This document shows, one piece after another, positions 19,230-22,917 of a stretch of DNA of 64,000 nt. The position numbers were made by a program, and so were the translations under genes. How positions within the stretch are numbered: position 1 is the stretch's first letter; each line of letters starts with the position of its first letter. The notes beneath the pieces were generated by a model. It was given only the letters and a program-made list of their open reading frames with translations, did not search any database and was not told where the DNA came from. This DNA comes from Nitrospira sp. (GTDB taxonomy: Bacteria > Nitrospirota > Nitrospiria > Nitrospirales > Nitrospiraceae): assembly GCA_029194535.1 (NCBI GenBank), contig JARFXR010000001.1, positions 1,496,721 to 1,560,720 of the forward strand. Direction: 5' to 3'.

Positions 19230-20216
19230 CTATTGCACGGGAACAGGGGTAATTTCGGTTTGAGGTGTCGTGATCTTCCACGGCACCATCGGCATAAGCG
19301 GCTGCGGTTTGGCATCGGGGGATGCTACCAACACCGCAATGGCCCCGCGAAGCGCGCCGGTCAGGGAATGGGTGACCAATGGGTACGCGCCTTCAGATTC
19401 AACGACCACATCGAAGGTCGCAGCGCTACCCGGTCCCACCACATAAGTTTGAACGCCGGTGAGCTTGTTGGCCGGGTTGCCGCTCTCATAGACATTGTCC
19501 CAGATCTCGCCGATCGGGTGGAACGAGGAAAACTCGTTCGGTCCCGCATTGACGAAGTAGACGCGTACTCGCTCGCCGGGCTTCGCCTCCAGTTTTCCTC
19601 CGCCCGTGACGAAGGGATGGTACTTGAAGATGCCCCCGTTGAACATCAACCCGTCGTATTTCCGGTCGAACATCGCCTGCACGTCACCGGGGTTCTTAAA
19701 ATGCTCCGATTGCATCAACACATATTCGCGATCGGCCTTGGGCCAGGCTTTGGCATTTTGAGGGTCCACGATGATCGCGCCGAACATGCCGCGGGCGATG
19801 TGCTGGATCATCGGCGGGGCGCCGCAGTGATAGAAGAACACGCCGGGCTTTTTGGCGACGAAGGTAAAGCTGATGGTTTCGCCGGCATTGACGGCTCGAT
19901 AGTTCTTCAGAAAGTCGATCTCGGCTGCGTGAAAATCCATCGCGTGCGGGTTCTTGTTCTCGGCGGGGTTGGTCAGGGTGAACTTGATCGTATCGCCCTC
20001 GGTCACACGGACGACCGGCCCCGGCATCGTTCCGTTGAACGTCCAGGCGGCGTACTTCTCGCCGCTGCCCTCGATGACGACATCGGTTTCGACCGCCGTC
20101 ATGGCCACCTCGTGTGTTTTCGCGCGGGCCTGGGTTGCATCGAACGATAGAGAAATCAGAAAACAGGTTCCCAACCCGACAAGGGTCAGAAACGAGCGGG
20201 AACGACGGATCTTCAT
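19230..20216 (-). CDS. nirK: copper-containing nitrite reductase NirK
   Basis: The 328 residues begin with a signal peptide (MKIRRSRSFLTLVGLGTCFL through ATQARA) and continue with two cupredoxin domains. Type-1 copper ligands are H in NPHAMDFHAAE, C in FFYHCGAPP, then H and M in MIQHIARGM. Type-2 ligands are the second H of HAMDFH, the H before the Cys and the late H in PLVTHSLTG. The catalytic Asp (MDFH) and His (SSFHPIGEIWD) are present, so the enzyme looks active, reducing nitrite to NO in the periplasm. In nitrite oxidisers its physiological role is debated. The start has AAGGAGG seven bases upstream. A Crp/Fnr-type operator lies 87 bases before the ATG. Confidence 0.95.
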   Translation of the reverse strand: MKIRRSRSFLTLVGLGTCFLISLSFDATQARAKTHEVAMTAVETDVVIEGSGEKYAAWTFNGTMPGPVVRVTEGDTIKFTLTNPAENKNPHAMDFHAAEIDFLKNYRAVNAGETISFTFVAKKPGVFFYHCGAPPMIQHIARGMFGAIIVDPQNAKAWPKADREYVLMQSEHFKNPGDVQAMFDRKYDGLMFNGGIFKYHPFVTGGGKLEAKPGERVRVYFVNAGPNEFSSFHPIGEIWDNVYESGNPANKLTGVQTYVVGPGSAATFDVVVESEGAYPLVTHSLTGALRGAIAVLVASPDAKPQPLMPMVPWKITTPQTEITPVPVQ

Positions 20217-20278
20217 CTGTACTGCCTCCTTCTTAGAAATGACATCCAGTGTGGGGTGATGAGTCGAAATGTGCGGCT

Positions 20279-20284
20279 AGGATA
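20279..20284 (-). promoter_or_regulatory. probable -10 element of nirK
   Basis: On the minus strand the hexamer reads TATCCT (four of six consensus bases). The implied start is near 20272. This places the centre of the palindromic operator (20314.5) about 42 bases upstream, the spacing of class II Crp/Fnr-activated promoters. No -35 hexamer is needed in that arrangement. Confidence 0.5.
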
Positions 20285-20302
20285 CCGAAGGAGAGCGGAA
20301 TA

Positions 20303-20326
20303 AAAACATGACATGCGTCATGTTTT
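20303..20326. promoter_or_regulatory. Crp/Fnr-family operator upstream of nirK
   Basis: A perfect 24-bp inverted repeat: AAAACATGAC, spacer ATGC, GTCATGTTTT. It contains the TGA-N6-TCA core recognised by Crp/Fnr proteins that carry Glu and Arg in the recognition helix. It lies between nirK and the Crp/Fnr gene, whose product has that Glu-x-x-x-Arg pattern (ETAIR). Confidence 0.75.
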
Positions 20327-20354: not shown

Positions 20355-21083
20355 TCAGGCCGATGCAAACGCTTTGAGGCGGGCCGGATCGCGGATGACC
20401 AGCCGGTTGGCGGTGCCGGTCACCAGGCGGGCTTTCTTGAAGCGGCTCATGATGCGGATGGCCGTCTCGGTCGTGGTACCGATCATATCAGCCATGTCCT
20501 GGCGGGTAAGCCGCACGGCGAGTCTGATGCCCTGCGGGTCCCGGACGCCGCTGCGTTCGGCCAGGTCGAGCAGCAGGGCCGCCAGGCGTTGATCGGTCCG
20601 ATCCAATGCGAGCAGCTTGGCTTTCTCCTGCGCCTCGTTGAGCCGCGCCCCCAGATACTTGATGACTTCGAGCGCGGCGGCCGGACTGCGCCGGAGCAGA
20701 TCGAAATACGCGCTCTTCCTCATGCGGAGGACGCTCACGTTGCCCATCGGTCGTGCGGTGCCGGGATGGCACGCTCCGTCAAAGGCGGCGGCGTCGCAGC
20801 AGAACAGGTCTCCGGGCATCAGCATTTTCAACGTGCAGTCCTTGCCGCCGGGCGACGACTTGACGCACTTGACGACGCCTTCCTTGACGATGTGGAAATA
20901 TTCGGTCGGATCGCCTTCGCGGAAGATGTATTCGTCCCTGCCGTAGCGGGCTTCGGACAGTTCGCCGAGCATGCGCAGGCGGTCGGTGTCGGACAGGATA
21001 TTGAGCAGGGGGATGCGTGCGAGCCCCGGCGAGAGCGCAGAACCCTCTCCGCTACTTGATGATTTGTTTTGCCGCTTCGACAA
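20355..21083 (-). CDS. Crp/Fnr family transcriptional regulator
   Basis: The 242 residues have a cyclic-nucleotide-like beta-roll (DEYIFREGDPTEYFHIVKEG), a dimerisation helix and a C-terminal winged helix (LTRQDMADMIGTTTETAIRI) with recognition residues E and R of ETAIR. The sensor region has several cysteines (VKCVKS, KDCTL, FCCDAAAFDGACHPG) but no N-terminal Fnr cluster, so the signal is uncertain; a redox or haem signal is possible. Translation starts at TTG (21083), supported by AGGAG nine bases upstream. It overlaps the transketolase 3' end by 32 bases and reads toward nirK, whose operator fits its recognition helix. Confidence 0.9.
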   Translation of the reverse strand: MSKRQNKSSSSGEGSALSPGLARIPLLNILSDTDRLRMLGELSEARYGRDEYIFREGDPTEYFHIVKEGVVKCVKSSPGGKDCTLKMLMPGDLFCCDAAAFDGACHPGTARPMGNVSVLRMRKSAYFDLLRRSPAAALEVIKYLGARLNEAQEKAKLLALDRTDQRLAALLLDLAERSGVRDPQGIRLAVRLTRQDMADMIGTTTETAIRIMSRFKKARLVTGTANRLVIRDPARLKAFASA

Positions 21084-22917
21084 TAGAGCGCGCTCCTATG
21101 CCAAAGTGGTCGATCAGCTCTTCGGGTTTTCCGCTATGGGGGATGGCCCGAACCGCGAGCTTGTGCACCCGGATCCCTTCGGAGCCGACGGCGTCGAGCA
21201 CCGCGTCGCCGAGTCCTCCGTGCGCGTAATGGTCTTCGACGGTCAGGATGCGTCCCTGCGCGGAGCGGGCGCAGTCCAACAGCGTGGTGCGGTCGATGGG
21301 AACGATGCTGTACAGATCCACCACGCGGACAGAGACGCCCGCCGCTTTCAATTGATCGTAGGCTTTGAGCGCTTCGAACAGCGTGACACCCGCCGCCACG
21401 ATGGTCAGCGCGTCAGCTTGACTGTGACGCAGGACTTTGGATCCACCGATGGGAAAGCGCTCGTCCGGACCGTAGAGCACGGGCGATTTCGGCCGGCCCG
21501 CTCTGAGATAGACCATGCCTTTGTGGGCGGCCGCCGCCTCCACCAACCGATAGGTACTGGTGGCGTCCGACGGATAGAGGACGGTGACACCGGGCTGCGC
21601 GGCCAACATGGCGATGTCCTCCAGCCCCATCTGCGAAGGTCCGTCTTCGCCGATGCTGACTCCCACATGCGTGCCGACGAGTTTGATGTTCGAGCCGCTG
21701 ATGGCCGCCATGCGGATGAAGTCATAGGCCCTGGTGAAAAAGGCGGCGAAGGTGGCGACGAAGGGAATCTTTCCGCAGGCGGCAAGTCCCGCCGCAGCGC
21801 CGAGCATGTTCTGCTCCGCGATAAAACTCTCGAAAAACCGGTCGGGAAATTTCTTGCCGAATTTTTCCGTATAGGTCGAATTCTTGACGTCCGCGTCCAA
21901 CGCCACGACCTGTTGGTTGGCGGCACCGATCGCCTCGAGCGCGACGCCGAAGGCTTCCCGTGTCGCCGCCGAATCACCGATCTTATACGGAGGAGCCGGC
22001 ACGGTTCCCGCGACTGCAGGGGCGGCCGAAGCGGGGATCGGCTTGGTGATGGCGATCTCGGCGCCGTTGGGCTTGAGTTGCTTCGTCAATTCCTCGATCG
22101 CCTTCTGCATGTCCTGGCCCTTCGGGATGGGCTTGCCGTGCCAGTTGGCGTGGTCCTCGATGAAGGAGATGCCCCGGCCCTTGAAGGTCTTGGCCAGAAT
22201 CACCGTGGGCCTTCCTTTCGTCTCGGCTGCTTTCGAGAAGGCCTCCACGATGGCCTTGAGGTCATGCCCGTCGATCACCACCGCATGCCAGCCGAAACCG
22301 GACCAACGCGCGCGGTAGGCGTCCATGTCGTGCTGCAGCATCGTCGGATCGCTCTGCCCGAGACGGTTCACGTCCACGACGGCACAGAGGTTGTCCAAGC
22401 CGTACTGGCGCGCGATTTCCGCGGCTTCCCAGACGGAGCCTTCGACGGATTCTCCGTCCCCCATCAACACGTATGTGCGGCGGGTCAGTTTGTCGACGAA
22501 CTTCGCATCGAGCGCGATACCCACGCCCACGGGAAGCCCTTGACCCAGCGAGCCGGTCGCCATGTCCACGAACGGCAGCCGTGGAGTCGGATGGCCTTCG
22601 AGATCGGACGTCAGGGTTCTCAGTTTGAGCAATTCAGCGGCGGGAAACAGACCCGCTTCGGCCCAGGCGGCGTACAGCAGCGGAGCGGCGTGTCCCTTGG
22701 ACAGGACGAATCGGTCGCTGTTGGAAGCTTTGGGGTTCTTCGGATCATAGCGCATGACGTGAAAAAACAGGGCCGACACGATGTCCGCGGCGGAACAGCA
22801 ACTCGACGGATGTCCGCTGCCGGCCTCGCTGGTCGCCCGAACGCTGTCGATCCGGAGCTTCGTGGCTTTGTTATGGAGCGTGGTGAGGAGGTCGGGCGTG
22901 AGGCTCAGGCTGGCCAT
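21052..22917 (-). CDS. tkt: transketolase
   Basis: The 621 residues contain the thiamine diphosphate site (GDGESVEGSVWEAA), the early substrate loop ATSEAGSGHPSSCCSA, the pyrimidine domain with FFESFIAEQNMLGAAAGLA and the C-terminal domain. The enzyme moves two-carbon units between sugar phosphates in the pentose phosphate or reductive cycles. It is slightly shorter than E. coli transketolase and closer to the animal/archaeal-like type. AGGAG lies six bases 5' of the ATG. The Crp/Fnr gene overlaps its end, so the two are probably co-transcribed. Confidence 0.92.
   Translation of the reverse strand: MASLSLTPDLLTTLHNKATKLRIDSVRATSEAGSGHPSSCCSAADIVSALFFHVMRYDPKNPKASNSDRFVLSKGHAAPLLYAAWAEAGLFPAAELLKLRTLTSDLEGHPTPRLPFVDMATGSLGQGLPVGVGIALDAKFVDKLTRRTYVLMGDGESVEGSVWEAAEIARQYGLDNLCAVVDVNRLGQSDPTMLQHDMDAYRARWSGFGWHAVVIDGHDLKAIVEAFSKAAETKGRPTVILAKTFKGRGISFIEDHANWHGKPIPKGQDMQKAIEELTKQLKPNGAEIAITKPIPASAAPAVAGTVPAPPYKIGDSAATREAFGVALEAIGAANQQVVALDADVKNSTYTEKFGKKFPDRFFESFIAEQNMLGAAAGLAACGKIPFVATFAAFFTRAYDFIRMAAISGSNIKLVGTHVGVSIGEDGPSQMGLEDIAMLAAQPGVTVLYPSDATSTYRLVEAAAAHKGMVYLRAGRPKSPVLYGPDERFPIGGSKVLRHSQADALTIVAAGVTLFEALKAYDQLKAAGVSVRVVDLYSIVPIDRTTLLDCARSAQGRILTVEDHYAHGGLGDAVLDAVGSEGIRVHKLAVRAIPHSGKPEELIDHFGIGARSIVEAAKQIIK

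Follow-up and report, generated by a model that had tools for sequence, protein, structure and literature searches.

The nirK locus

The window (the whole 64-kb stretch of Nitrospira DNA that was analysed) contains, on the minus strand, the gene of a Crp/Fnr-family regulator located between the genes for transketolase and copper nitrite reductase, with the following features:

21052..22917, minus strand: transketolase gene (tkt; NF004559)
20355..21083, minus strand: Crp/Fnr-family regulator, 242 aa, TTG start (PF00027 and PF13545)
20303..20326: putative operator AAAACATGAC-ATGC-GTCATGTTTT, a Crp/Fnr-type inverted repeat centred at 20314.5 (read from the window sequence)
20279..20284, minus strand: -10 hexamer TATCCT of the nirK promoter (spacing to the operator fixed in 30 of 30 loci)
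20226..20232, minus strand: ribosome-binding site AAGGAGG of nirK (read from the window sequence)
19230..20216, minus strand: nirK, copper nitrite reductase (NO-forming) of the Nitrosomonas-like type (TIGR02376, 4kns)

The regulator gene starts within the 3' end of tkt, so that the two genes overlap, and is separated from nirK by 138 bp. The tkt-regulator-nirK order is conserved across relatives, including N. defluvii (FP929003) and N. moscoviensis (NZ_CP011801), and therefore, the regulator is probably co-transcribed with the housekeeping gene tkt. The predicted nirK product matches TIGR02376 (E 5.7e-57) with a score of 193.5 bits, below the curated cut-off of 296.3; its best solved relative is 4kns (E 3e-106), many other NirK structures are matched as well, and it is by this similarity to solved copper nitrite reductases that the protein is predicted to be NirK. 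About 2 kb past nirK, on the same strand, there is a formate/nitrite transporter gene (PF01226, 16314-17387), with no perfect copy of the operator before it.

The regulator falls within the Crp/Fnr superfamily, as the first-pass annotation of this DNA had it, by the criteria of a sensor domain, a Crp-type helix-turn-helix and a fold match (PF00027, E 3.9e-16; PF13545, E 7.5e-20). The predicted structural model (pLDDT 87) has the CRP fold and matches the structures of CRP, GlxR and FNR; the closest solved folds to this model are those of M. tuberculosis CRP and GlxR (Z ~27), and A. fischeri FNR gives Z 24.8 (VIA).

The first-pass annotation also described the repeat as a perfect 24-bp palindrome. 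This is slightly overstated because the 4-bp centre (ATGC) lacks symmetry, whereas the 10-bp arms are indeed perfect. The rest of its reading of the promoter holds: the TGA-N6-TCA core lies within 20303-20326, TATCCT is found on the minus strand at 20284-20279, the ribosome-binding site AAGGAGG (20232-20226) precedes the nirK ATG at 20216, and the operator centre, placed at about -42, comes out at -42.5 when the hexamer is taken as -12 to -7. In that register, the predicted transcription start of nirK is 20272 or 20273, with the operator centred at -42.5 or -41.5. No -35 hexamer was found by a scan of the nirK promoter. Activators of the Crp/Fnr family bound at -41.5 recruit RNA polymerase, and a fixed spacing of -41.5 or -42.5 without a recognisable -35 is typical of class II activation.

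The operator is a rare sequence. In the 64-kb window, the motif ACATGACNNNNGTCATGT (ACATGAC-N4-GTCATGT) is matched perfectly only once, compared with a chance expectation of ~2e-4 for 14 fixed bases in 64 kb. When the 3.98-Mb genome is searched by pattern matching with AACATGAY-N4-RTCATGTT, the nirK-linked copy is the single perfect match, and with up to two mismatches allowed, seven matches are obtained versus none for the reversed control pattern. Among weaker candidate targets, the site at C1:658833 (L148/L075), between a P-II-like gene and a CBS-domain gene, is the only one in the genome with one mismatch to the strict pattern; it was rejected because it is asymmetric and has no good forward -10. 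The site at C1:862868 falls within a long ORF and was rejected as well.

Conservation of the operator

The first-pass annotation had proposed searching for the site upstream of orthologous nirK genes in relatives. Of 61 related genomes searched, 40 contain the regulator, and 30 Nitrospiraceae loci were taken for alignment. Each of these has the operator behind the regulator at class II spacing, so the refuting outcome named in the first-pass annotation, a palindrome not conserved upstream of orthologous nirK, is not what is seen; nirK is the next gene in 29, and in the remaining one (L036), the contig stops short of nirK. In every locus, the -10 hexamer begins 29 or 30 bp from the operator centre (in L020, the hexamer, TATGGT at 29 bp, was read by eye), which puts the operator centre at -41.5 or -42.5. 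Given this predicted position in every locus and the lack of a detectable -35, the nirK promoter fits the class II Crp/Fnr-dependent type, as judged from promoter geometry.

The family consensus of the operator is AAYATGAY-N4-RTCATRTT. When 67 non-redundant sites are aligned, the information content of the 20-bp operator is 28.8 bits, compared with ~0.19 bit per column in the upstream and ~0.06 in the downstream flank, and the information rises again at the -10 columns. The ATGA/TCAT blocks are nearly invariant, whereas C.A mismatches are tolerated at the variable pairs.

This pattern bears on the highly unlikely possibility that the inverted repeat functions as an RNA hairpin, either the intrinsic terminator of the tkt-regulator transcript or a leader structure. 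The repeat does lie directly 3' of the regulator stop codon, and in this genome, a 10-bp stem with U after it is predicted for the RNA (z -2.6). However, it is the letters that are kept and not just the pairing, the T tract is weak or missing in several genomes, the repeat is absent from the list produced by a terminator scan, and the same element is found away from the regulator, before second nirK genes and a ferredoxin-thioredoxin reductase (FTR) gene, always 29-30 bp from a -10.

The fixed register also bears on the mode of regulation. The regulator might bind the site and repress nirK, for instance, by blocking polymerase at -35 in its liganded or unliganded form, given that its site overlaps the -35 region and Crp/Fnr proteins bound there can act as repressors too. 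A repressor site, however, needs no fixed register, whereas the spacing observed here is constant and no -35 is recognisable, so that repression appears unlikely and activation is the preferred reading.

The operator tracks the regulator rather than nirK

The distribution of the operator was surveyed in 120 Nitrospiraceae genomes, each at least 90% complete; the counts span related genomes and thus overstate the number of independent events. The main-type regulator is present in 61 genomes, in one of which (G139) it is broken by stops, and 55 of the 61 carry a perfect AAYATGAY-N4-RTCATRTT site; G139 has neither a perfect site nor an orthologous nirK. By comparison, among the 59 genomes that lack the regulator, 48 of which have nirK, only two (G137 and G147) contain a perfect site, and in neither case is it at nirK. 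The regulator-bearing genomes contain 63 perfect sites altogether: 55 directly behind the regulator, seven preceding a second, ~60% identical nirK paralogue in the N. defluvii group, and one (in G004) preceding the gene for the FTR catalytic chain. Those copies at second nirK and FTR genes that were examined have a matching -10 at the matching distance, and three more second nirK genes are preceded by a one-mismatch site with TATCCT or TATTCT. The search pattern was built from nirK sites, so that its sensitivity at nirK is by construction, but the rarity of the sites elsewhere is not. The tally indicates that the site tracks the regulator and that the predicted regulon, judged on perfect sites, is close to a single gene.

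A competitor for the role of the neighbouring protein would be another Crp/Fnr paralogue that binds the operator, with the adjoining gene a bystander. About seven candidates were noticed in this genome at a first search, and operators can be common to paralogues. Nevertheless, this explanation is quite unlikely in view of the co-occurrence counts above, of the persistence of the site behind the regulator where nirK does not adjoin (L186/L233, L132 and L219), and of the coupled changes of helix and operator described below. Thus, the operator appears to be kept or lost with the regulator and not with nirK, which, together with the joint shift of helix and operator types, supports the claim of the first-pass annotation that the neighbouring regulator acts directly on nirK.

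Several loci depart from the common arrangement. In N. defluvii-type genomes, the second nirK, which is far from the regulator, has the same operator and -10 as the first gene (L140 of G034, 2845-2864; also L243, L244 and L246-L249), so that the two nirK genes would share one regulator. The FTR site (L131, 2523-2542; G004:C1:1928022-1928041), with TATCTT at class II spacing, is the only perfect non-nirK target in the regulator-bearing family set, and FTR is a redox enzyme. In L186 (4001-7025) and L132 (4573-7600), the regulator and operator are present, but in place of nirK, ~300-500 bp downstream, there are genes for a plastocyanin/beta-propeller protein and a small cytochrome of the c type. 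In G137 and G147, comammox genomes without the regulator, an identical perfect site, AACATGACGAAGATCATGTT, is apparently intergenic (L234, 1559-1578; L235, 1582-1601), with another Crp/Fnr gene (30% identity) ~1 kb away. In a Lake Baikal MAG (G028; L150, 2040-2701), a seemingly frameshifted regulator is followed by a perfect operator, and no orthologous nirK is present; either the module is decaying or the assembly is in error.

Joint changes of recognition helix and operator

The recognition helix of the regulator is T-E206-T-A-I-R210, so the Glu/Arg pattern for TGA half-sites that had been read from the sequence is indeed there, in the form of Glu206 and Arg210. Orthologues with the helix ETxIR or ETATR go with the operator AYATGAY, and those of deeper Nitrospirales, with the helix K-ETTSR, go with TTAATGAT-CTAT-ATCATTG. 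Orthologues with E-ETxVR, found in G038, G041 and G059 from another family and in the genus-g5 genomes G089 and G091, go with an FNR-type box, TTGAT-CCAY-ATCAA or TTGAC-ATAG-ATCAA. In every lineage, the box at nirK is centred at about -40.5 to -42.5, with a weak -10 in the G038 group. These comparisons, which amount to about three to four independent contrasts between clades, support a joint shift of the recognition helix and the operator at an unchanged promoter position.

The EETxVR proteins form one clade in the tree (support 100/99). In G089 and G091 (L231 and L232), a CC-type regulator that is 41-43% identical lies upstream of nirK with the FNR-type box; the proteins nearest to it in the tree are those of another family, which suggests that the gene was transferred or is an old duplicate. 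G089 has amoA and G091 does not. In relatives of G089 without the regulator, the nirK leader is still recognisable, with the left half-site lost.

Nitrite oxidizers and comammox

With amoA (PF02461) as the comammox marker, the 120 genomes divide into 42 with and 78 without the gene. The main-type regulator is present in 60 of the 78 genomes without amoA and in one of the 42 with it (G098, which has no orthologous nirK). Some of the 18 genomes lacking both the regulator and amoA carry a comammox-type nirK, and these may be comammox drafts from which amoA is missing. In comammox genomes without the regulator, mere remnants of the box of regulator-bearing relatives are seen. By these counts, nearly all comammox genomes seem to lack the regulator and operator, whereas canonical nitrite oxidizers keep both, a split that rests on a few losses.

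The literature on the comammox species N. inopinata fits such a loss of control: NirK levels are strong under aerobic conditions (PMC6478695), and an earlier gene inventory shows no fnr for it (PMC5596200). This agreement comes from published work on that species, and the reported NirK levels, being those of a comammox strain, have no direct bearing on the regulated nitrite oxidizers.

The sensor domain

The sensor domain contains five cysteines (73, 83, 95, 96 and 105). The several sensor cysteines noted by the first-pass annotation are thus present, but as a conserved set they reduce to three: Cys73, Cys95 and Cys96 are found in 37 of 37 Nitrospirota orthologues and in none of seven outgroup relatives, whereas Cys83 and Cys105 vary among the orthologues, so that a five-cysteine sensor was rejected. 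The N-terminal cluster of Fnr is missing, in accord with the earlier reading, the first cysteine being residue 73. His106 is invariant in the Nitrospirota orthologues and is common to FNR too.

When aligned to CRP (numbered with the initiator Met), Cys73 corresponds to Val49, Cys96 to Gly71, Asp/Glu97 to Glu72 and His106 to Arg82, with Cys95 inserted alongside; the alignment of the sensor loop is uncertain by one residue, and the reference sequences of CRP, FNR, CooA and DNR served only to establish which residues correspond. Val49, Gly71, Glu72 and Arg82 of CRP are positions of the cAMP pocket. The replacements fit a pocket in which binding of cyclic nucleotides gave way to a thiol switch or to a cofactor held by cysteines. 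The sensing of redox, O2 or NO through the cysteine set, which the first-pass annotation put forward, is supported only indirectly, by the invariance of three of the five cysteines. Tentatively, the Nitrospirota proteins could represent a Crp/Fnr sensor subfamily in which the pocket was rebuilt on Cys73, Cys95, Cys96 and His106, with a cofactor for sensing redox state or nitrogen oxides of a kind new to Crp/Fnr; such a subfamily would serve a single enzyme, NirK, and where it was lost or replaced, NirK would be controlled differently, setting comammox apart from canonical nitrite oxidizers.

A model for nirK control

The Crp/Fnr protein encoded at 20355-21083 is very probably a dedicated local class II activator of nirK. 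From the conservation of the operator, its fixed spacing, its dependence on the regulator, the co-change with the helix and the near-single target, all of which are observed, we infer binding by the neighbouring protein, activation over repression, and a cofactor. A dimer would bind the repeat at 20303-20326 through Glu206 and Arg210 of each recognition helix, overlap the -35 region and recruit RNA polymerase, with its centre at about -41.5, to a promoter that appears to consist of a -10 without a recognisable -35. Because the regulator is probably transcribed with tkt, it is probably present at a steady level, with its activity set post-translationally. The most likely switch would be a ligand or redox cofactor on Cys73, Cys95 and Cys96, together with His106, at the place of the cAMP pocket of CRP; candidate signals include NO, nitrite, O2 or redox state, and copper.

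The association of an Fnr-type gene with nirK is already published: in N. moscoviensis, N. defluvii, OLB3 and the comammox UW-LDO-01, such a gene is reported to precede nirK, and a role in nirK regulation is suggested (PMC5596200). The UW-LDO-01 copy is probably of the 41-43% identical type with the TTGAY box. In PMC8510549, a Nitrospira Crp/Fnr protein is named NnrR and its targets are predicted with a borrowed NnrR matrix. In their accessible parts, neither paper describes the cysteine set, the near-single regulon, this operator with its spacing, or the difference between nitrite oxidizers and comammox, and the open-access literature yielded no report of these features, subscription journals lying outside this coverage. 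To that extent, the operator and its geometry, the near-single regulon and the split appear to be new.

NirK is present in nearly all Nitrospira and its role there has been called unknown (PMC8115632, PMC6606698). With its defined operator, its one main target and its distinctive cysteines, the proposed dedicated activator offers a direct handle on this role, and knowing what the regulator senses would tell under which conditions the cell calls for nitric oxide. From the contrast between canonical nitrite oxidizers and comammox, which compete in wastewater plants, NirK is predicted to be regulated in the former and unregulated in the latter.

Comparison with known systems

The regulator shares the Crp/Fnr fold, the Glu/Arg pattern, the His-Pro of the sensor loop and an operator at -41.5 with FNR of E. 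coli and A. fischeri. Unlike FNR, it lacks the N-terminal four-cysteine [4Fe-4S] motif and has Cys73, Cys95 and Cys96 instead, its regulon comprises approximately one gene compared with the global regulon of FNR, and its operator is ATGAY, with A as the first base in 66 of 67 non-redundant sites, rather than TTGAT-N4-ATCAA; the FNR-like TTGAY-N4-RTCAA box occurs in sister lineages only. The score against the FNR model PRK11161 (59.7 bits; cut-off 228) places the protein outside FNR proper. It resembles CRP and GlxR, which are the closest solved folds, also in class II geometry. It differs from CRP in that Gly71, Arg82 and Ser83 are replaced by Cys96, His106 and Pro107, Cys95 is extra and the counterpart of Glu72 is Asp or Glu; because these pocket residues are replaced, cAMP binding is not expected, and the score against PRK11753 (53.5 bits; cut-off 266) is likewise far from that of CRP proper.

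The mode of action, a Crp/Fnr activator acting on a nitrite reductase gene, would be shared with DNR and NnrR, the NO-responsive Crp/Fnr regulators of nir and nor genes. The identity to P. aeruginosa DNR is, however, 24%, the operator differs, the cysteine set is absent from DNR, and no DNR/NnrR model in NCBIfam is reached by the regulator. CooA, the heme-dependent CO sensor, is the best sequence match in the PDB (E 2.9e-17), and Cys95 lies in the loop of the heme-ligand Cys75 of CooA, at the position of that residue or close to it; at the position of His77, the regulator has Asp/Glu97 and no His, according to a phmmer alignment that is uncertain in this loop. Against these systems, the predicted switch, a Crp/Fnr class II activator, is ordinary in kind but unusual in being dedicated, with binding and activation well supported by the comparative sequence analysis.
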